Shown piece by piece: positions 13,164-21,425 of a DNA stretch of 40,142 bases (positions are counted from its first letter, which is position 1; each line of letters starts with the position of its first letter). The position numbers and the translations under genes were made by a program. Origin of the DNA: Bacteroidales bacterium (GTDB lineage: Bacteria; Bacteroidota; Bacteroidia; Bacteroidales; UBA932); NCBI GenBank assembly GCA_017446775.1, contig JAFSQE010000020.1, forward strand, positions 1 through 40,142, given 5' to 3'. Under the pieces are notes generated by a model. That model did not search any database, was not told the DNA's origin, and was given only the letters and a program-made list of their open reading frames with translations.

Positions 13164-13181
13164 GACAAGTACTTATCCTTC

Positions 13182-13219
13182 AGAAGGGTGGCTATAACAA
13201 TAGTCACCCTTCTTTTTTT
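13182..13219 (+). terminator. intrinsic terminator of the ilv operon
   Basis: A 14-bp stem (13182-13195 with 13200-13213, one G:T wobble) closes a 4-nt AACA loop and is followed by a run of seven T (13213-13219). It lies 18 nt after the ilvC stop. Confidence 0.92.
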
Positions 13220-13248
13220 GAATATTGCAAGATATTATTATACCTTTG
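13217..13248 (+). promoter_or_regulatory. complete Bacteroidetes promoter of the HerA-SPFH gene cluster
   Basis: TTTG (13217-13220), a 20-bp spacer, and TACCTTTG (13241-13248) match both consensus elements. The -33 TTTG is formed by the T-run of the ilv terminator plus the next G. The predicted start is near 13252-13256, giving a leader of about 265 nt before the ATG at 13520. Confidence 0.7.
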
Positions 13249-13255
13249 TAAAGGT

Positions 13256-13519
13256 GTCTTTAGGGCACAAATACATAGAAAGCGCATAGCATTCCTTACA
13301 ATCGAATCTGGACAATTCAATTTGAATGGGAATAGTGACGCGTACTCACTGGCTATACTTTGGGGCTAAGCCCAGGCTATAGCAGAAAGTGTGAGCATCA
13401 CCCATCCTTATTCATTCAAGGGCAGTCCAGAGCCTGATTGTAGAGTAAGTGCTTTGGTGGCCCGCACTTTCTTTATATTATCCTCCAGACCCGGGCCTGA
13501 TGGGGAAAGGAAAACGAGG
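13256..13519 (+). other. long 5' leader with several inverted repeats
   Basis: No convincing gene lies between the promoter and the ATG at 13520. The leader holds: a palindrome ATTCAA-T-TTGAAT (13315-13327); an imperfect hairpin with GCTATA (13352-13357) pairing TATAGC (13378-13383), an inner TGGG/CCCA stem and an outer CTCAC/GTGAG pair (13345-13395); AAGTGC/GCACTT (13447-13452 and 13464-13469); and the near-perfect palindrome CAGACCCGGGCCTG (13486-13499), 20 nt before the start codon. Together these could form a regulatory RNA structure or operator sites. I do not recognise a known riboswitch class. A GTG-initiated extension of the next ORF from 13391 runs through this region but does not look like protein. 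Confidence 0.5.
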
Positions 13520-16228
13520 ATGTCGAATAATCCTGTTGCCGAGGGCAAGTCCGCCGGAATAGAAACCATTCAAATCAACAGTGGCGAACATATAGGCTTG
13601 TCTGTACTCGAAATCAGTACGGTTCCTCACATATCGATACTGTCGGACGAGATTTCAGCAGAAAACCGGAATCAGATAATTGAGCGAGCTGCGACTGATA
13701 TGTCCAATCTCTTGACTGAGATATATCAGCAGTACAAAGAGCAATACAAAGTCGATGGTATCAATCCTGATATGTCTTTGGAACTGGTCTGGACAACCAA
13801 GCCCGTGCAGAATCAGCCTTACAAGGCATCAATTCAATTATTCATCCTCATCAGAAGCATTCACAAAGATGCAGGGCGTGCATCAGGCTTGGTATGGATG
13901 GTCTCAAAACAAGTGTCGGCCACTCTTGATGGCGGACTGTATGAGTGGCGGCAATGTCCGGTAGCAGAGTTTTCAAAGTACTATGATACTGTCTGCCGAG
14001 GCAGTTGCAACGCCATTGTAAAGGAAGAGCGGGCAGAGAATCTCCAGAACAACTTCATGCCTGTCTGCTATGCCTTTGACCGCTTCCCGACAGACTTTAA
14101 GGATTTGAGCCGTTTGGCCAATATTCTGATTGGACATCCAAACTGCGCGGTATCCTTCCAATTGATCCCAACCTATTATACTCAAGAAGAACTTGCAGAA
14201 CTTGAATTGCTCACGCAGAACCTGAATATGCTTGGGCATGGGGTTGCAGACCGCCAAGTCGGGAATGTCAGCTTCACAAATGCAGAGCGGCTGTCAGGCC
14301 TGTACAAACACTATTCAGACAATAGGACAAAAGCACTGTTTTTATACAACATCGTTGTGTATGGCGGCGCCGATGCTCTCCCTGCAGTCTCATCCAGGGT
14401 CATGGGACAATTGACCTTCACATCAGAAACAGCCCCAAATCTACAAGTCGTCAAACTGGACTGCTCTTCATTTTACCAGAACGACACGATGTTGTACCCA
14501 ATGCCGTGGGTCATCAACGAAATATTGGTTAACTGCAATCGTTCTGCTGCCATATGGAGCGGACAGATTGTCAGCAACAACCTGTATCGCTTCCCTTATA
14601 TCATTACGGCAGACGAGGCTGCATCGTTCTGGAGACTTCCGATAGGCGATGACCGCGTGAATGCCGGTTTAACAGTGAATGAGACGGGGAAAGTCAGCAA
14701 GACATATTCGCAGAATCTTATTAATGCCGGTGATATAGAAATCGGCAGGCTCAAAACATCTTCAGCCAATTCCATCGGCTTTACGCTTAAGGATCTGGCA
14801 AAGCACATGCTAATAGTTGGCACACCAGGTTCAGGTAAGACAACCTTCTCAGTAGGTCTTCTTGACCGCCTGTGGAAAGACCACCACATACCTTTTTTGG
14901 TTATTGAACCGGCGAAAAATGAGTATAGGGCGCTGATACAAAGCATACCGGAACTTCAGGTCTTTACTCCGGGCAAGAATTTCATCTCCCCTTTTGTCTT
15001 CAATCCTTTTGTTCCGCCGAAGAATGTTCGTCTGGAGACGTATAAATCCACTCTGAAGACCGCTTTTGCGGCAGGTGTATCAATGTCGACACCACTCGAC
15101 AAGATTTTCGAGGATACCGTAAACAACTGCTATTCGGATTTCAGGTGGCTGGACTCCTACACGGTGGATAATAAAGGAAAGATATTCAATATCACAGACT
15201 TCATCAAATGCTTCCAAGAAACTTTTGATTCAATTGGTTATACCGGTGACGCAAAGAATATCGGGCGGGCAGGTATCGTGAGGCTCAAGAGTCTGGTGAA
15301 CCTGTTTGATAACTACTACTCTATTCCAATCGAAGATATCCTTAAAAAGCCGACAATCATAGAACTGGCCGCCATAGAAAACAGCGAGCAGAAAGCGCTT
15401 ATCATCGCATTGCTTCTGCTATCGATATTAGCATATGTCAATGCAAATTACATCGGTGAAGGCGGGTTGCGCAACTTTATTCTTCTTGAAGAAGCTCACG
15501 TCCTGCTTGATGCCGATACTAACGTAGGTGAGGGGGCGGCGAACCCCAGCGCAATTGCACAAGGACTTGTTAAGAGAATGCTGGCGGAAATCCGTTCCTA
15601 TGGTGTAGGACTTGCCATTGCCGATCAGTCCCCAAGAAAAGTCGGAACAGACATCGTGGCGCTGACAGACATCAAGGTGGCATTCCGTCTGGTAGAAGGA
15701 CAGGATAAGGAAATCCTAGCCAACTCGACAAGCATGAGTGAAACCCAGATGGCACGTCTGGCCAAATTAAAACCAGGAGAAGCATTCCTCTTCTTTAACC
15801 GTCTCGACGAGCCAGAAGAAATCATAACTCCCGATTACCGGCTTAACAACCAGATAAGCATATCCTTGTCCGACGATGGGATCAAGGAATTGTCAGCGTA
15901 TTGGAATGACAAGCAGGACAAACTTAGGCCATATCCAGAATGTGCGTTCTCGCCTTATTGTACGGAATGCTGCGACTTCGAACGCAGGTTGTTAGCCAGA
16001 GAGATTGCACGAAGGATGTTTAAAGCGGTTCCTCAAGGCACGAATAATCCTGAACCAATTAAGAAAGTGTTCTCGCACTTTACGGGATTGATTAAAACCG
16101 AGTTAAATGATGAGCCCTATAGTAACGAACTCAAGGCCTGTACAAAGATGCATTTCTGGCGCAAGATAAAATATGAAACCCGTCTTAGGTTTAAAGAATC
16201 AGATGTAGAACACTCTATGAATAATTAA
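13520..16228 (+). CDS. HerA/FtsK-type P-loop ATPase (DUF87-like) with C-terminal cysteine cluster
   Basis: This 902-residue protein has a long N-terminal region (about 1-410) with no motif I recognise, then a HerA-like motor. The segment IGRLKTSSANSIGFTLKDL leads into Walker A GTPGSGKTT (434-442). FLVIEPAKNEY follows, the Walker B strand is FILLEEAH (Glu657/Glu658), and IADQSPRKVGTDIV carries the polar sensor. Such ATPases pump or remodel DNA or polymers as hexamers. Near the C-terminus C808, C814, C817 and C818 form a CX5CX2CC cluster that may bind zinc. No NurA-type nuclease is adjacent, so it is not the standard HerA-NurA pair. The start at 13520 (MSNNPVAEG) is preferred over an in-frame GTG at 13391, which lies inside an inverted repeat. 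It is first of six tightly spaced genes; the next starts 4 nt after its stop. Confidence 0.82.
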   Translation: MSNNPVAEGKSAGIETIQINSGEHIGLSVLEISTVPHISILSDEISAENRNQIIERAATDMSNLLTEIYQQYKEQYKVDGINPDMSLELVWTTKPVQNQPYKASIQLFILIRSIHKDAGRASGLVWMVSKQVSATLDGGLYEWRQCPVAEFSKYYDTVCRGSCNAIVKEERAENLQNNFMPVCYAFDRFPTDFKDLSRLANILIGHPNCAVSFQLIPTYYTQEELAELELLTQNLNMLGHGVADRQVGNVSFTNAERLSGLYKHYSDNRTKALFLYNIVVYGGADALPAVSSRVMGQLTFTSETAPNLQVVKLDCSSFYQNDTMLYPMPWVINEILVNCNRSAAIWSGQIVSNNLYRFPYIITADEAASFWRLPIGDDRVNAGLTVNETGKVSKTYSQNLINAGDIEIGRLKTSSANSIGFTLKDLAKHMLIVGTPGSGKTTFSVGLLDRLWKDHHIPFLVIEPAKNEYRALIQSIPELQVFTPGKNFISPFVFNPFVPPKNVRLETYKSTLKTAFAAGVSMSTPLDKIFEDTVNNCYSDFRWLDSYTVDNKGKIFNITDFIKCFQETFDSIGYTGDAKNIGRAGIVRLKSLVNLFDNYYSIPIEDILKKPTIIELAAIENSEQKALIIALLLLSILAYVNANYIGEGGLRNFILLEEAHVLLDADTNVGEGAANPSAIAQGLVKRMLAEIRSYGVGLAIADQSPRKVGTDIVALTDIKVAFRLVEGQDKEILANSTSMSETQMARLAKLKPGEAFLFFNRLDEPEEIITPDYRLNNQISISLSDDGIKELSAYWNDKQDKLRPYPECAFSPYCTECCDFERRLLAREIARRMFKAVPQGTNNPEPIKKVFSHFTGLIKTELNDEPYSNELKACTKMHFWRKIKYETRLRFKESDVEHSMNN

Positions 16229-16232
16229 AGCG

Positions 16233-16967
16233 ATGAAGGAATACAACGAATCGAGTCCGTTTGAATCGGACATCAATAAAGACATGGCCGGATCTTTTGA
16301 TTCGGACGTTAATGGCGATCTCGCCGGCGCCTTTGATTCTGACGTAAACAGCGAAAGTGGGAGTTTTGATTCTGATGTCAATGCAGAAGAAGGGGCCTTT
16401 GACTGGAATACTTCGGAGGTCAATGACGAAGATTTTGAATGGAACGCGTGGAAAGACGACGATGATGATGACCAAACCGAAATACCCGGCCCGGTGATAC
16501 AGCCTTCTGATCAATCTGATGATGACGATTATGCTAACTCTGATGATGAAAATGACGGGGGAAATGGTAGCGGCGGTGGCTGGGGCACTGATGGAGGTGA
16601 TATGACTGCCCCGGAAGACAATTTTGGTGATGATTCGGAAGATGGAAGCTCTGAATATGGGGATAGCGGAGAATCCGACTACGACGCCGAGGGTGGATTG
16701 GATGGGGGCGATGATATATCTTCCGATTATGACGAAGATACCGGTTCTGATTTTAGCGATGATATGGGTTCCGACTTTGATGATGACGAGGCAACAGACT
16801 TCGATGATGTTGGTGACAACGATAGCGGTGATTTCGGAGATGATATGGGGGCGGACTTTAGCGACGATAGCGGAACCGATTTCTCAGATGCGGGAGGATC
16901 TGATTTCTCCGATTCTGGCGGAGATGACTTCACCGATGATGGTGGGGATGACTCCTCTGATGTATGA
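16233..16967 (+). CDS. extremely Asp-rich repeat protein
   Basis: Of 244 residues, 70 are Asp; there are only three Lys (2, 16, 74) and no Arg. The N-terminal part holds four or five copies of a roughly 12-residue unit with core G-S/A-F-D-S-D-V-N. The centre has a DDDDDD run and Gly-rich stretches. The C-terminal 74 residues repeat units such as GSDFSDD, GADFSDD and GTDFSDA. No signal peptide or hydrophobic segment is present, so it should be soluble and probably disordered. Possible roles are DNA mimicry, cation buffering or a flexible scaffold; none is shown by sequence. The reading frame is real: it lies 4 nt after the ATPase gene and the regular D-S-G-F pattern occurs only in this frame. 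Confidence 0.8.
   Translation: MKEYNESSPFESDINKDMAGSFDSDVNGDLAGAFDSDVNSESGSFDSDVNAEEGAFDWNTSEVNDEDFEWNAWKDDDDDDQTEIPGPVIQPSDQSDDDDYANSDDENDGGNGSGGGWGTDGGDMTAPEDNFGDDSEDGSSEYGDSGESDYDAEGGLDGGDDISSDYDEDTGSDFSDDMGSDFDDDEATDFDDVGDNDSGDFGDDMGADFSDDSGTDFSDAGGSDFSDSGGDDFTDDGGDDSSDV
16257..16406 (+). repeat. tandem peptide repeats in the acidic protein, N-terminal set
   Basis: Residues 9-58 carry successive units PFESDINKDMA, GSFDSDVNGDLA, GAFDSDVNSES, GSFDSDVNAEE and GAFDWNTSEVN. Codon use differs between copies, so the repeat is conserved at protein level rather than being a recent DNA duplication. Confidence 0.75.
16743..16964 (+). repeat. D/S/F/G peptide repeats in the acidic protein, C-terminal set
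   Basis: Residues 171-244 repeat a 7-10 residue unit of the form G-x-D-F-S-D-D (GSDFSDD, GSDFDDD, ATDFDD, GADFSDD, GTDFSDA, GSDFSDS, GDDFTDD). One aromatic residue per unit, evenly spaced among acids, may form a regular binding surface. Confidence 0.7.
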
Positions 16968-17019
16968 TGAGATGATTAATACAGACAGCCAAAAGAATAA
17001 CTAATAATACAACAATAAT

Positions 17020-18141
17020 ATGGGACTTTTTCACAGAAACGAAAACGAAGTCAATTTTGCCGGCGGCAGTAAGAATTTCATGGAGTCACTCCAACGGCAG
17101 AATGACACCGGGACTCTTATTTATCTTGACAACAGACAAGATTTCAACACTAAATCAGTTATTACGGTCGCACCCAACGAGCAGGTGATTTTTATTAGGA
17201 ACGGGGCTATCTATGGCGTTCTTCCGGGAGGCAACCGTTACGAAGTAGAGACAGACAATTATCCAGTATTAAGCAGGATTCGTAACATGCTCTCCGGTGG
17301 CGTGAGCACGTTCTCATGTCAGTTGTACCACGTAAACACAAGTATCCAGGAGGTGCTTTGGGGAACAGCAAATCCCATTGAGTTGGAAGACCATCACCTT
17401 GGGGACGGTATTCCCACCTTGGTCCGTGGTGCAGGGAAATTCCTTGTCAGATTCAATATCGAAGAGGATGATGAGGCTTGTAAAAAAGCGTTCATGCAAT
17501 TAATGGGCGATAAGACCACATTTACCGGAAGTGATTTAAGCTTTTTGTTTCGGGCAAAAATATCGCAAAAGATTAGCTCAGTTATCGGCAAACGGCTTGA
17601 GGAACGGTCACTAACAAGATCCATCAATGCAATATCAAGTCAACTGGAAGATTTCTCCGAGGAAATAAAGCCTTTTTTCGCTGAGCTGTTTGTTACCTAC
17701 GGACTTGAAATGGTCGATTTCTCATTTGAGTCTCTAAATATCGATGACACAGACATCAGACGTAAATACATTGACCGTCTGTCCGCCGCCAAGCACACCG
17801 GCAGTTATGACAAAGCCATGCAGCAGGAACTGCTGGAGAATGTATCCTTGAATCCCGGGGCTGGCGGAGTAGCTAGTGCCGGAGCTGGATTAGGGATGGG
17901 AATGGCCGCCGGTAACGCTTTTGCGAGCATGGCCACTACGGCTTTCGCAAATCCCCAGCCGCAACAGCAGGCTCAGCCTTCGGCTGGTTTTGGAGGACCG
18001 GGACGCTTTGGCGTCAATCCGGCTGCAGCACAACCTGACCCTATGGAGTCTTTGTCGAAAATGAAACAACTTCTTGATGCCGGACTCATCACACAAGAGG
18101 TCTACGACGCAAAGGTAGCCGAGATTATGCAACGCTTATAA
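17020..18141 (+). CDS. SPFH/YdjI-like (virion core protein-like) protein with C-terminal SHOCT-like motif
   Basis: This 373-residue protein starts MGLFHRNENEVNFAGGSKNF and has the pattern of YdjI-type SPFH proteins: NEQVIFIRNGAIYGVLPGGNRYEVET (about 48-73), FSCQLYHVNTSIQEVLWGT, and VRGAGKFLVRF (band-7-like beta strands). A helical stretch follows (ISQKISSVIGKRLEERS...). Residues about 275-338 are a Gly/Ala/Pro/Gln-rich linker, and the last 33 residues (DPMESLSKMKQLLDAGLITQEVYDAKV) form a SHOCT-like oligomerisation motif. SPFH proteins assemble on membranes as rings or microdomains; in Bacillus YdjI works with the PspA-type envelope stress system. There is no N-terminal membrane helix, so membrane contact probably needs the partner proteins encoded downstream. 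Confidence 0.82.
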   Translation: MGLFHRNENEVNFAGGSKNFMESLQRQNDTGTLIYLDNRQDFNTKSVITVAPNEQVIFIRNGAIYGVLPGGNRYEVETDNYPVLSRIRNMLSGGVSTFSCQLYHVNTSIQEVLWGTANPIELEDHHLGDGIPTLVRGAGKFLVRFNIEEDDEACKKAFMQLMGDKTTFTGSDLSFLFRAKISQKISSVIGKRLEERSLTRSINAISSQLEDFSEEIKPFFAELFVTYGLEMVDFSFESLNIDDTDIRRKYIDRLSAAKHTGSYDKAMQQELLENVSLNPGAGGVASAGAGLGMGMAAGNAFASMATTAFANPQPQQQAQPSAGFGGPGRFGVNPAAAQPDPMESLSKMKQLLDAGLITQEVYDAKVAEIMQRL

Positions 18142-18148
18142 TTCCAAT

Positions 18149-18832
18149 ATGAAAAAGACTATTTTTAAAGTCCTTGTAGGACTCGTTTTTCTGGTTGCCT
18201 TTAACGTCCTCTTTTTCTTACTGGGAGGTACGGAAAGGACAACTACAGAATGGATCAGTTATGGATTCATCCATTTCGCCTATCTGTGCATTCTGTTGAC
18301 TCCGCTATTCTGTAAGAATAAGACGGGTCGTGCAGTTCTTAATGCCAGTCTGTACTTAAGGGCACTCATCTATTTCTTCATTGCTTTGATTGCCGGTATC
18401 GTGTTTATAGCGTGGAACCCGGAGGAGATATTATGGCCCACAATAATTCAGGCTGTAATTGCTGCCACCTTCCTTATCATGCAACTGATGAGTGTTACTG
18501 CCAACGAGGTAACAGATGAATCTCTTGCGCGTCAGAGCAAGGAAAAGGTTTACATTCAAGAGCTTGCGTCCAATATGCGAGAAGCGATGCAAAGTGCACA
18601 AGAACCCGAGGCCCGCAAAAAGCTTCGCAGTGTTTACGAACTTCTCAATAGTGCCTCAACAGGCAGTTGCCCGGAGGCTGAAGAAATCGAACTACAGTTA
18701 GCGGCCGATGTTAACGCTTTGTGTATGAATGCCCAGAGCTTTAGTCTCAGTCAAATTGACAATAGCATTTTGGCTATCAAAGAAACTCTGAGAAAGAGGA
18801 ACGCCATAATAAACAAAAGTCGTTTTGCTTAG
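18149..18832 (+). CDS. four-helix membrane protein with helical cytoplasmic tail
   Basis: This 227-residue protein has four predicted membrane helices, near residues 5-26, 35-55, 66-90 and 95-117. A soluble helical tail (118-227) contains EKVYIQELASNMREAMQSA and SQIDNSILAIKETLRKRN. No catalytic motif was recognised. The gene lies 7 nt after the SPFH gene and 13 nt before the next, so it belongs to the same operon. It could anchor the SPFH protein or the ATPase to the inner membrane; that is inferred from position only. Confidence 0.72.
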   Translation: MKKTIFKVLVGLVFLVAFNVLFFLLGGTERTTTEWISYGFIHFAYLCILLTPLFCKNKTGRAVLNASLYLRALIYFFIALIAGIVFIAWNPEEILWPTIIQAVIAATFLIMQLMSVTANEVTDESLARQSKEKVYIQELASNMREAMQSAQEPEARKKLRSVYELLNSASTGSCPEAEEIELQLAADVNALCMNAQSFSLSQIDNSILAIKETLRKRNAIINKSRFA

Positions 18833-18845
18833 CCTGTAACAGAGT

Positions 18846-20231
18846 ATGAAAAAAAATAGTATTGTCACAATAGTTGGCTTGATTGCTTTGCTGTTATCCC
18901 CTGTCGCTATGCGGGCAGCTAATACGCACATTACGAACGAAGGCATTGGCAAGGTGAAGATTGGCGCAACTATTTCAAAATTACCCGATTCTATCAATGG
19001 TGTCTATGACAGAATTGAATTTGCTACCGAAGAGGGCTTTGACGAAGGCGCATACGAGTATACCTATGACGTTTATCACGCTTATTTAAAAGACGCTGTC
19101 GTTTTTGACATCTTTCCCGCAGGAGGCAAAGTAAACTCGATAACTGTATATTCAGATAAGCTGAAGACTAAAAATGGATTGAGTTTAAGTTCTACGCCAA
19201 GAGAACTATTTGCTGCAGGAGGAAAGGCTATTTCTTTTAACGATGGAACCGTGGCAATTGTATGTGACGGTGCTATCTTCTTTGATATGCCCCTCTCTGA
19301 AGCAGGCATTAATAAAGCAGAACAGGCATATTTTGGCTATGAGGTGGCTTTTGATGCATCTGATTTCGAAGAATCCGGACACTCTCGAAGAGTCGTCCTG
19401 AATGGAGAGCATGGCAATCAGCCTGTTGCAACATCTGCACCCAACATGAGCCTTAAGGACACCCTGCTGGCATCTCTATTCCTCGCCGTCCTATTGGCCA
19501 TACTCGGTCATATGATTTATGTCAATTTCTTCGCAAAGCCTTTCCCCGAAGAGACCATTGCGCTACAAGGAACCGACTTGAACAATTCGTATGTAATTTC
19601 CAGAGTGGATAACCTTTACAACAATGTGTTCACTACTTACCAAGAATCAGGGGATACGGAGCCATTGAAGTTCCCTGTAGGCAAACAAGCGGCAAGTGAA
19701 TCCAAGAGAACACTGAAGGATATCTACGACAACCACATGCCGGTTGGCGGGGAAGCAGCCGAAAAGTTAAGGAAGGTATCCATTCTTACAAACCATGCAT
19801 ATAAGCGTTCTTTCACCGGTTCCATTAAATTCCTGGTAATCACAATCATAGTGGGCGTCGGAGCGTGTCTGCTTAATAAAGATGCCAAACCGCTGTTATA
19901 TTTCCTCCCCGCTTGTGTATTATACTATTTCTCATGTATGACACCTTACTATATACAAATGGAAAAGGCGTTGAAGGAGATGAAAACCGGAAGGAGATCA
20001 GGTAGATTTATGGATGCTATCCTCGGCGGCATATTCGGGTTTGCGGCTTCTGCCCCAATGATCGTAGAAATCACCAAGGATGCCAGATCGGGAGAAGTAC
20101 TTGATAAGCGAAACGACAGTTCTCTGCAAATATTCGCATTAGCCCTTTCTATCATTTTGTTCATAATACTTGCATACGTCATGCTTTTCGTGGCTTTGCT
20201 CAATTATGTAAGAAACTACATTTTAAGATAA
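18846..20231 (+). CDS. multi-pass membrane protein with an exported N-terminal domain
   Basis: This 461-residue protein begins with a signal or anchor segment (1-24, KNSIVTIVGLIALLLSPVAMRA). An exported domain of about 180 residues starts GIGKVKIGATISKLPDS, a pattern seen in several periplasmic domains that open with G-x-IxIG. A membrane helix follows at about 208-232 (LLASLFLAVLLAILGHMIYV), then a soluble region, then further helices near 328-345, 350-368, 395-412 and 430-455. I do not recognise the family. In context it could link an outside sensor to the cytoplasmic ATPase/SPFH assembly; this is inference. Confidence 0.7.
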   Translation: MKKNSIVTIVGLIALLLSPVAMRAANTHITNEGIGKVKIGATISKLPDSINGVYDRIEFATEEGFDEGAYEYTYDVYHAYLKDAVVFDIFPAGGKVNSITVYSDKLKTKNGLSLSSTPRELFAAGGKAISFNDGTVAIVCDGAIFFDMPLSEAGINKAEQAYFGYEVAFDASDFEESGHSRRVVLNGEHGNQPVATSAPNMSLKDTLLASLFLAVLLAILGHMIYVNFFAKPFPEETIALQGTDLNNSYVISRVDNLYNNVFTTYQESGDTEPLKFPVGKQAASESKRTLKDIYDNHMPVGGEAAEKLRKVSILTNHAYKRSFTGSIKFLVITIIVGVGACLLNKDAKPLLYFLPACVLYYFSCMTPYYIQMEKALKEMKTGRRSGRFMDAILGGIFGFAASAPMIVEITKDARSGEVLDKRNDSSLQIFALALSIILFIILAYVMLFVALLNYVRNYILR

Positions 20232-20256
20232 TCCAATAATCATAATCGTTAACTTT

Positions 20257-21342
20257 ATGGAACAATCATCATCTTTGAAACTTCAACAGATTGTATGTCC
20301 TTCCTGCGGACGCCCCATCAATTCGTTCAACCCCAATAAACTGATGGCAGATTGCCCGTACTGCGGCAGCAAACTTATCAATCCACTTGTCTCATCTAAG
20401 GAGATACCTGTCCCCGAGCGTATCATCCCCTTTACAACTACAGAGCAGACATTTGAGAATGCCCTGGTCAACAGCCTGATAAATCAGGACTATGTACCTG
20501 TGGACATCTTCAAATCCATTGAGACAGATAATGTTGTACAGGCATTCTTACCCATGTATCTTTTCGAGGGTACTTACACGGCTGCCTGGAGTTGCGAATC
20601 GTCTTACATGGACCAGAAAGTATCTGTAAGTTCAAATTCTGTAAGCACACGTGATGTTAAAAAATGGCGTCCGCAAAACGGTAATGCGGCAGGTAACTTT
20701 GCATTCCTGTGCCTCGCCAACGAAGGTGCGAAAGAGATTCCGGAAGAGCTCCGTCAGTTTACACGTAACTTCCCCTACGATGTAATGATGTCCAAGCCTT
20801 TTGATGAGGACTCGATTGATTACAACGACGATAATCTGATAACACTTGAACGCAATACAGATGCCTCATTGATATGGCAAAAATATGGAAAAGGTAAAGT
20901 AGATGAAACTGCAAGAAAAGCTGCTCTTGAGCAGATAGGGAATCAGGAAATCCGCAACTTCAGGGCTTCATCCAGCTTCCAGGTAACCACTCAGGGTAAA
21001 TATGTCCTGGCACCCTTCTGGTTTGTATATTATACATATAACGGTTCTCAGTATCATTTCTTGATGGATGGTGTGGGCCAAACCACCTCTTATTCATATC
21101 CGGTAAATCACGATGAGGTCAAATGGATCGAGAGTAGGTATAAGATTTCAAATATTTTCAAATGGCTCTGGCCGTTGGCAATACTTATTTGGATCCTTTC
21201 CAAGAGTTTTGTGGCTGGTTTGGTTACGTTTGGAGTCTGGTTCATAGCTAAGATAATTATCAAGAAGGTAATGGAGAGCCAGGTTGTATCTAGATTGGAC
21301 AGTTCAATGAAAGCCCGCAAACAAGCAGCTTCAGAACTCTAA
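20257..21342 (+). CDS. zinc-ribbon protein with C-terminal membrane anchor
   Basis: This 361-residue protein has an N-terminal zinc ribbon: CPSCG (C14, C17) and CPYCG (C33, C36). A central domain of about 240 residues includes YLFEGTYTAAWSCESSY and VLAPFWFVYYTYNG, followed by a hydrophobic hairpin at about 295-330 (WLWPLAILIWILSKSFVAG...). The tail is basic (KARKQAA). Zinc-ribbon plus membrane proteins occur next to SPFH genes elsewhere (for example YdjG near YdjI in Bacillus), which supports a joint function. It is the last gene of the six-gene unit and is followed by a terminator 21 nt downstream. Confidence 0.75.
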   Translation: MEQSSSLKLQQIVCPSCGRPINSFNPNKLMADCPYCGSKLINPLVSSKEIPVPERIIPFTTTEQTFENALVNSLINQDYVPVDIFKSIETDNVVQAFLPMYLFEGTYTAAWSCESSYMDQKVSVSSNSVSTRDVKKWRPQNGNAAGNFAFLCLANEGAKEIPEELRQFTRNFPYDVMMSKPFDEDSIDYNDDNLITLERNTDASLIWQKYGKGKVDETARKAALEQIGNQEIRNFRASSSFQVTTQGKYVLAPFWFVYYTYNGSQYHFLMDGVGQTTSYSYPVNHDEVKWIESRYKISNIFKWLWPLAILIWILSKSFVAGLVTFGVWFIAKIIIKKVMESQVVSRLDSSMKARKQAASEL

Positions 21343-21363
21343 CACATCACATAATGAAACGAG

Positions 21364-21398
21364 TCACCTCTGTCATATGGCAGGGGTGATTTTGTTTT
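21364..21398 (+). terminator. intrinsic terminator of the HerA-SPFH cluster
   Basis: An 11-bp stem (21364-21374 with 21379-21389, two G:T wobbles) has a 4-nt ATAT loop and is followed by TTTTGTTTT (21390-21398). Confidence 0.85.
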
Positions 21399-21422
21399 AT
21401 GATTGGATAGTTATTATTTTTG
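21391..21422 (+). promoter_or_regulatory. complete promoter abutting the UPF0597 start codon
   Basis: TTTG (21391-21394), a 20-bp spacer, and TATTTTTG (21415-21422) match the Bacteroidetes consensus. The -33 lies inside the terminator T-run. Only 3 nt separate the -7 box from the ATG at 21426, so the transcript is probably leaderless. Confidence 0.65.
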
Positions 21423-21425
21423 TGT

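Follow-up and report, generated by a model that had tools for sequence, protein, structure and literature searches.

A six-gene cluster of a Bacteroidales genome that may be a copy of a mobile export system for acidic carrier proteins

Within a 40,142-nucleotide stretch of a Bacteroidales genome (GenBank assembly GCA_017446775.1, contig JAFSQE010000020.1, positions 1 to 40,142, referred to here as the window) are six co-directional genes that form a real, self-contained unit. The conserved core comprises four of them, encoding an ATPase, a very acidic protein referred to here as the carrier, an SPFH protein and a membrane protein with four hydrophobic stretches (TM4); these four recur together in loci of three phyla. 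On balance, we favour reading the cluster as the Bacteroidota copy of a mobile system in which a VirB4-like motor exports acidic carriers. Rated a shade short of even probability is the broader proposal, that a single VirB4-like motor together with SPFH and TM4 constitutes a new kind of bacterial secretion system, spread by horizontal transfer among gut phyla, whose exported acidic repeat carriers bear polymorphic toxins in Bacillota and are unarmed in Bacteroidota. The six genes are as follows.

13520..16228, + strand: ATPase of 902 residues, with a predicted VirB4-like N-domain, a DUF87/HerA-type P-loop core and a C-terminal Cys cluster
16233..16967, + strand: acidic repeat protein of 244 residues and net charge -85, a carrier without a C-terminal effector domain
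17020..18141, + strand: SPFH (Band_7_1) protein with a SHOCT-like tail, from a profile match
18149..18832, + strand: TM4 membrane protein with a C-terminal soluble part
18846..20231, + strand: membrane protein with an N-terminal signal-like helix, accessory
20257..21342, + strand: zinc-ribbon protein with a C-terminal membrane anchor, clade-specific, from hydropathy, profiles and relatives

The open reading frame (ORF) of gene 1 extends upstream to 13391, with ATG 13520 as the most likely start, because the alignment with the closely related locus L038 begins near this codon and a conserved leader precedes it. Separating the genes are gaps of 4, 52, 7, 13 and 25 nucleotides; positions, strand and spacing (4–52 nucleotides) all match a first-pass annotation of this DNA.

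Close relatives of the ATPase were counted at 29 loci, the window included. Relatives came from one search that gave 23 loci (44–87% identity to the window ATPase; titled Bacteroidales and kin, Bacillota, Akkermansiaceae, Planctomycetaceae and Treponema), from a close IMG/VR contig (52%) and from genome samples that added five (62–64% to the query used, 68% for one). The count of 29 was made after L052 (a fragment), L156 (the same stretch as L042), and L024 and L053–L064 (overlapping counted loci) had been left out. Phyla are those of the record titles, and contigs of metagenome-assembled genomes may be misbinned. Seven of the 29 contigs end before or within the SPFH gene; where contigs extend far enough to include them, SPFH and TM4 are both present, in 22/22 loci. 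Only the window and L038 show gene 5 (2/29, although contigs ending early could hide more), and the gene 6 family is found in 10/29, all inside the Bacteroidota/Akkermansiaceae clade. The first-pass idea of six genes as a single system thus holds for the four-gene core, and a co-occurrence of all six across relatives is not found. Elsewhere in the set are a zinc-ribbon-TPR protein (11/29 loci: 9/14 Bacillota and two Bacteroidota, L112 and L195) and YidD (PF01809, 9/29). The ATPase tree splits Bacteroidota between an 11-row clade shared with Akkermansiaceae (support 99/99) and, separately, the pair L112/L195; the rows nearest to the window point to Bacteroidota as its phylum. With 10 of its 27 inner branches open, the tree leaves the deeper order unresolved.

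Two more distant relatives have gene sets of their own. L096 (6073–14714) encodes an ATPase about 33% identical over the core, followed by a 960-residue acidic repeat protein and, further downstream, a 135-residue protein with weak YbjN/chaperone matches and genes that by eye are Hsp70-like and DnaJ-TPR-like, possibly a chaperone-linked version. L158 (4286–18337) combines a full-length ATPase relative (32%) with SPFH, TM4, an acidic carrier bearing an HExxH motif and, by eye, further membrane and AAA-like genes.

The ATPase has a single P-loop domain (PF01935, DUF87/HerA-type, 1e-11) and no clear transmembrane helix. Preceding this domain is an N-domain (residues 8–387) that in the predicted model is VirB4-like, and within the core are what we take to be the Walker A (434–442) and Walker B (around 654–660) motifs. 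The HerA/FtsK-like label given in the first pass suits the core, over which alone HerA chains align, and not the N-terminal 380 residues, which in the model fold like VirB4. The C-terminal Cys cluster described there is confirmed by C808, C814, C818 and C874, invariant in 20 aligned ATPase sequences.

The carrier is encoded by the gene that follows the ATPase, with a small gene intervening in three loci: in L031 (10768–11205) and L034 (12721–13194), both Bacteroidota, it encodes a membrane protein with three hydrophobic stretches, and in L112 it is a 68-residue ORF. In the window, the carrier has 70 Asp and 18 Glu among its 244 residues and no Pfam match above cut-off; the first description had it as Asp-rich and unrecognised. 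The best 60-residue segment reaches an Asp plus Glu fraction of at least 0.40 in 22/29 loci and at least 0.33 in 27/29, against 0/196 and 5/196 of distant ORFs. As a control, around distant DUF87 ATPases (mostly 25–33% identity), an acidic gene (at least 0.40, at most two genes downstream) was found at 4/19 and 1/11 loci. An N-terminal motif, M-x(0,2)-[DE]-x(0,1)-[FY], is present in 19/28 carriers and 64/828 ORFs; it was picked post hoc and serves as a lead only.

Unforeseen by the first-pass annotation, the position of gene 2 holds in Bacillota relatives carriers that end in variable toxin-like domains, as in polymorphic toxins. Above the Pfam cut-off are WHH in the L045 carrier (3.6e-12), adjacent to a SUKH-1 gene (4.4e-9), and ADPrib_exo_Tox in that of L157 (6e-23), which is followed by a 61-residue ORF, another acidic gene with WHH at its C-terminal end (5.5e-12) and a DUF6985 gene (1e-13). 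The L044 and L047 carriers match papain-fold toxin 1 (4.4e-15 and 4.5e-10), and that of L043 matches the DUF6782 metallopeptidase (1.9e-6; 27.7 bits, cut-off 27). An HExxH motif, at motif level or below cut-off, occurs in the carriers of L041, L051, L176 and the more distant L158; a C-terminal domain shared by L039, L042 and L040 looks papain-like, and the L194 C-terminus looks ParB-like. Exchange of these ends is illustrated by L041 and L045: the ATPases are identical at 844 of 890 aligned residues (95%), and the carriers align from the start over 626 and 537 residues and then diverge to different C-termini. Small genes often follow Bacillota carriers, of which only the SUKH-1 gene of L045 was identified as immunity-like, the others, DUF6985 of L157 included, being unassigned in this respect; in the window no immunity-like gene adjoins the carrier. 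Among complete or nearly complete carriers, a C-terminal domain is present in 12/13 from Bacillota and 0/11 from Bacteroidota (Fisher p 1e-5, ignoring relatedness and with a criterion, a Pfam match or a non-acidic tail of at least 100 residues, set after looking at the data). In this count the L041 domain runs to the contig end, and L036 is unarmed though its C-terminal third is partly less acidic.

Downstream of the carrier are the membrane partners. Gene 3 matches Band_7_1 (1.3e-19), as its SPFH/YdjI-like first reading implied, while the SHOCT-like tail stays below cut-off (0.0024). The two multi-pass membrane proteins and anchored zinc ribbon proposed for genes 4–6 are also recovered: hydrophobic stretches number four in TM4, five in gene 5 and, by hydropathy, one in gene 6, which has C-terminal helices in a weak model (mean pLDDT 58.9, left out of the fold search) and whose best zinc-ribbon match (2.5e-4) is below cut-off. 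Within the window's family, three genomes also carry modules of SPFH, YidD-like, zinc-ribbon-TPR and membrane genes (L196, 6621–10375; L198, 3400–7326; L199, 377–4291), and that of L196 has by eye a recombinase-like ORF upstream. A different SPFH gene set (L200, 4230–9438; L202, 8542–16566; L205, 2528–9563; L206, 2621–9568) combines SPFH with a gene of membrane type, which resembles TM4 in L200, L202 and L205. Also in this set are other neighbouring genes and a protein of 655–752 residues, part of which is acidic in L200 and L202.

The unit lies between ilvC and a desulfidase gene. These two genes directly adjoin in G051, a congener, with the stop codon of the first overlapping the ATG of the second. 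In the window they are separated by about 8262 additional bases (8.26 kb), so the unit represents an insertion or a loss. Flanking the genes are the following features.

13164..21425, + strand: extra segment containing the whole unit, missing in G051, border uncertain by about 1 base
13182..13213, + strand: upstream intrinsic-terminator-like hairpin, 14 pairs and a T-run, inside the extra segment
13217..13248, + strand: match to the Bacteroidota-type promoter, TTTG-N20-TACCTTTG, the second box with an L038 counterpart
13249..13519, + strand: leader of about 270 nucleotides, probably a structured RNA, then a terminator-like hairpin; folding z -2.0
21361..21392, + strand: downstream intrinsic-terminator-like hairpin, 14 pairs

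The unit's genes have a GC content of 43–49%, and 0.43–0.51 at third codon positions, compared with 56–58% and 0.69–0.72 for ilvB, ilvC and the desulfidase gene, in agreement with the lower GC noted at first. SPFH matches are found in the genome itself and in 0/11 congeners. In an order-level sample, 7/295 genomes have some ATPase match, which is close and full-length in two, counting the window's genome; for such close matches, further samples gave 3/299, 3/197, 2/200 and 1/391 (centre genome included in each), and one that nearly repeated the 197-genome sample was left out. Because the unit is rare and deviates in composition, we favour its gain in the window over loss in G051. Horizontal movement, suggested at first from GC alone, is probable, and rarity, composition and the empty G051 site fit it. 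The six genes include no integrase; by eye, a recombinase-like ORF lies upstream in L039. ATPase relatives also occur on a plasmid (L180) and on the IMG/VR contig (L176), while a phage collection gave two distant partial matches and a plasmid collection 42 matched records, one covering at least 80% of the query at 33% identity.

The flanking terminators reported in the first pass are present as hairpins on both sides, without an excess of such sites across the region (10 found, 9.8 expected from the shuffle mean), and since the count equals that mean, the two were judged on strength and position. The promoter match follows what we take to be the Bacteroidota consensus. The leader is common to the window and L038 (9713–9998) despite different flanks, and has a counterpart in L030 at about 2040–2371. 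The window stem UCUGGAC/GUCCAGA is replaced by UCUCGCA/UGCGAGA in L030, L031, L032, L033 and L035, where an analogous arm, its closing stem differing by what look like compensatory changes, is followed by a terminator-like hairpin. Leaders of the window, L038, L030 and L031 were folded; pairing in L032, L033 and L035 was read by eye. Rfam gave no match in the window, nor in the L030 leader, the sole relative leader searched. The leader is probably a structured RNA and possibly an attenuator.

In the proposed export system, the soluble VirB4-like ATPase would dock on a membrane platform of the four-helix protein, the zinc-ribbon membrane protein and an SPFH scaffold, recognise the very acidic, extended carrier encoded by the next gene and pump it across the inner membrane. 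We infer this assembly, the carrier recognition, export, its direction and its target; the membrane-tethered ATPase assembly envisaged in the first pass gains from the SPFH and TM4 partners found with the ATPase. SPFH proteins are known to organise membranes. In Agrobacterium, the type IV system is enriched in detergent-resistant membranes with SPFH proteins, an enrichment independent of SPFH proteins according to a section heading of the source (PMC8656257). In Bacillota the system would be a polymorphic-toxin exporter, because the carrier has an exchangeable C-terminal toxin and often an immunity-like neighbour. The window carrier lacks an effector domain, and the cargo is therefore probably the acidic protein itself, or an effector supplied in trans.

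Several observations weigh against this reading. The P-loop core of the ATPase model has low confidence, and the VirB4 likeness is structural only: PF03135 matches neither the ATPase nor any of 11 genomes, VirB4_plasma matches the P-loop alone (E 0.0071), and a PDB profile search returned HerA chains and no VirB4. The best NCBIfam model is CedD (1.3e-24; 86.7 bits, cut-off 600), and PADLOC defence models match the P-loop part (Mads8 9.1e-15, HerA 1.4e-13). The six proteins include no outer-membrane or other VirB-type component above cut-off. Strong acidity is missing from two carriers, those of L043 and L047, and one other ORF within six genes of an ATPase, in L051, also reaches 0.40. Effector readings for L039 (outside the Pfam scan), L040, L041, L042, L051 and L194 are at motif level, with chance-level Pfam matches for the last five and for L050; the L046 and L050 tails are unassigned, and the L048 carrier (Bacillota) has no C-terminal domain. 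In Bacteroidota, none of the 11 complete carriers, among them that of the window, has a Pfam match above cut-off, so the toxin argument reaches the window by homology only. Finally, L196, L198 and L199 have no ATPase in the visible stretch, and the SPFH/membrane part is thus separable.

Bacillota relatives resemble polymorphic toxin systems (Zhang et al. 2012, PMC3482391) in a shared N-terminal part, a variable C-terminal toxin and an immunity-like neighbour, and carry the known families WHH, papain-fold and ADP-ribosyltransferase. They differ in having an acidic repeat as this N-terminal part, and the trafficking modes described in the sections consulted include the type VII YueA FtsK/HerA motors but no linked motor/SPFH/TM4 set, nor SPFH or an acidic carrier. 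Type VII secretion exports toxins with a YueA/EssC motor of FtsK/HerA type, unlike the single-P-loop ATPase here; no WXG100/LXG substrate or membrane-embedded multi-domain EssC motor is among the six proteins. The fold predicted for the N-terminal 380 residues and the P-loop core recall VirB4/TrwK of type IV secretion, with no PF03135 sequence match and with SPFH, TM4 and the carrier in place of VirB partners: VirB6/8/9/10-type proteins gave no match above cut-off, TrbL matching gene 5 at E 0.39 only. A remnant of DNA translocation or conjugation carrying cargo genes would account for this N-domain and for CedD, a DNA-translocating ATPase; it is very improbable, as no relaxase or other conjugation protein was found above cut-off among the six and the core recurs across three phyla. 

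Alternatively, in an abortive-infection type of conflict, the ATPase would sense invading DNA or damage and free the carrier effector inside the cell, restrained by the neighbouring gene. This is unlikely, albeit in keeping with the Mads8 and HerA matches, the core's likeness to HerA chains in fold and sequence, the plasmid and IMG/VR relatives and the absence of a recognised outer-membrane part. The N-domain is VirB4-like, and HerA chains leave it unaligned; the membrane module is present wherever contigs reach it; the window site is metabolic; and a SUKH-1 gene next to a WHH toxin, as in L045, is the usual layout for exported polymorphic toxins. SIR2-HerA and DUF4297-HerA antiphage systems share the DUF87 core and lack the VirB4-like N-domain and membrane partners of the window cluster, in whose other five proteins no SIR2, DUF4297 or nuclease partner matched. 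Membership in HerA defence was rejected: the P-loop matches such models, but the six proteins include no defence partner. With its metabolic neighbours the window locus is not visibly a defence island, the flanks of other loci not having been surveyed for defence genes. Less probable still is a PspA-YdjGHI-like module for envelope stress or membrane repair to which an ATPase has been added and in which the acidic protein acts as regulator or buffer. It would explain the Band_7_1-kind SPFH with a zinc-ribbon membrane protein, likened to Bacillus subtilis pspA-ydjGHI by kind and not by orthology, and the SPFH modules without ATPase; in the excerpts of the sources, YdjI requires the membrane proteins YdjG and YdjH (PMC8581546), and YdjG carries a zinc ribbon (PMC9239133). 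The cluster, however, has an ATPase and a carrier and no PspA, and the carrier slot of relatives holds toxin-like domains. The PspA-type neighbourhood first suggested for the SPFH/zinc-ribbon pair was rejected: PspA has a match in just one of 16 host genomes, and there it lies on a different contig.

In the full-text literature searched, outside which are preprints and most subscription journals, no title or abstract start describes this gene set; in the excerpted part of PMC7159879, HerA and SPFH appear in the reference list only. If the export reading is true, gut anaerobes would share a route for toxin delivery that combines a minimal motor with an unusual carrier, acidic and extended. This would give polymorphic toxins a further trafficking mode and tie VirB4-like motors to SPFH membrane scaffolds, raising the question of why Bacteroidota, at two separate places in the ATPase tree, have carriers without effector domains.
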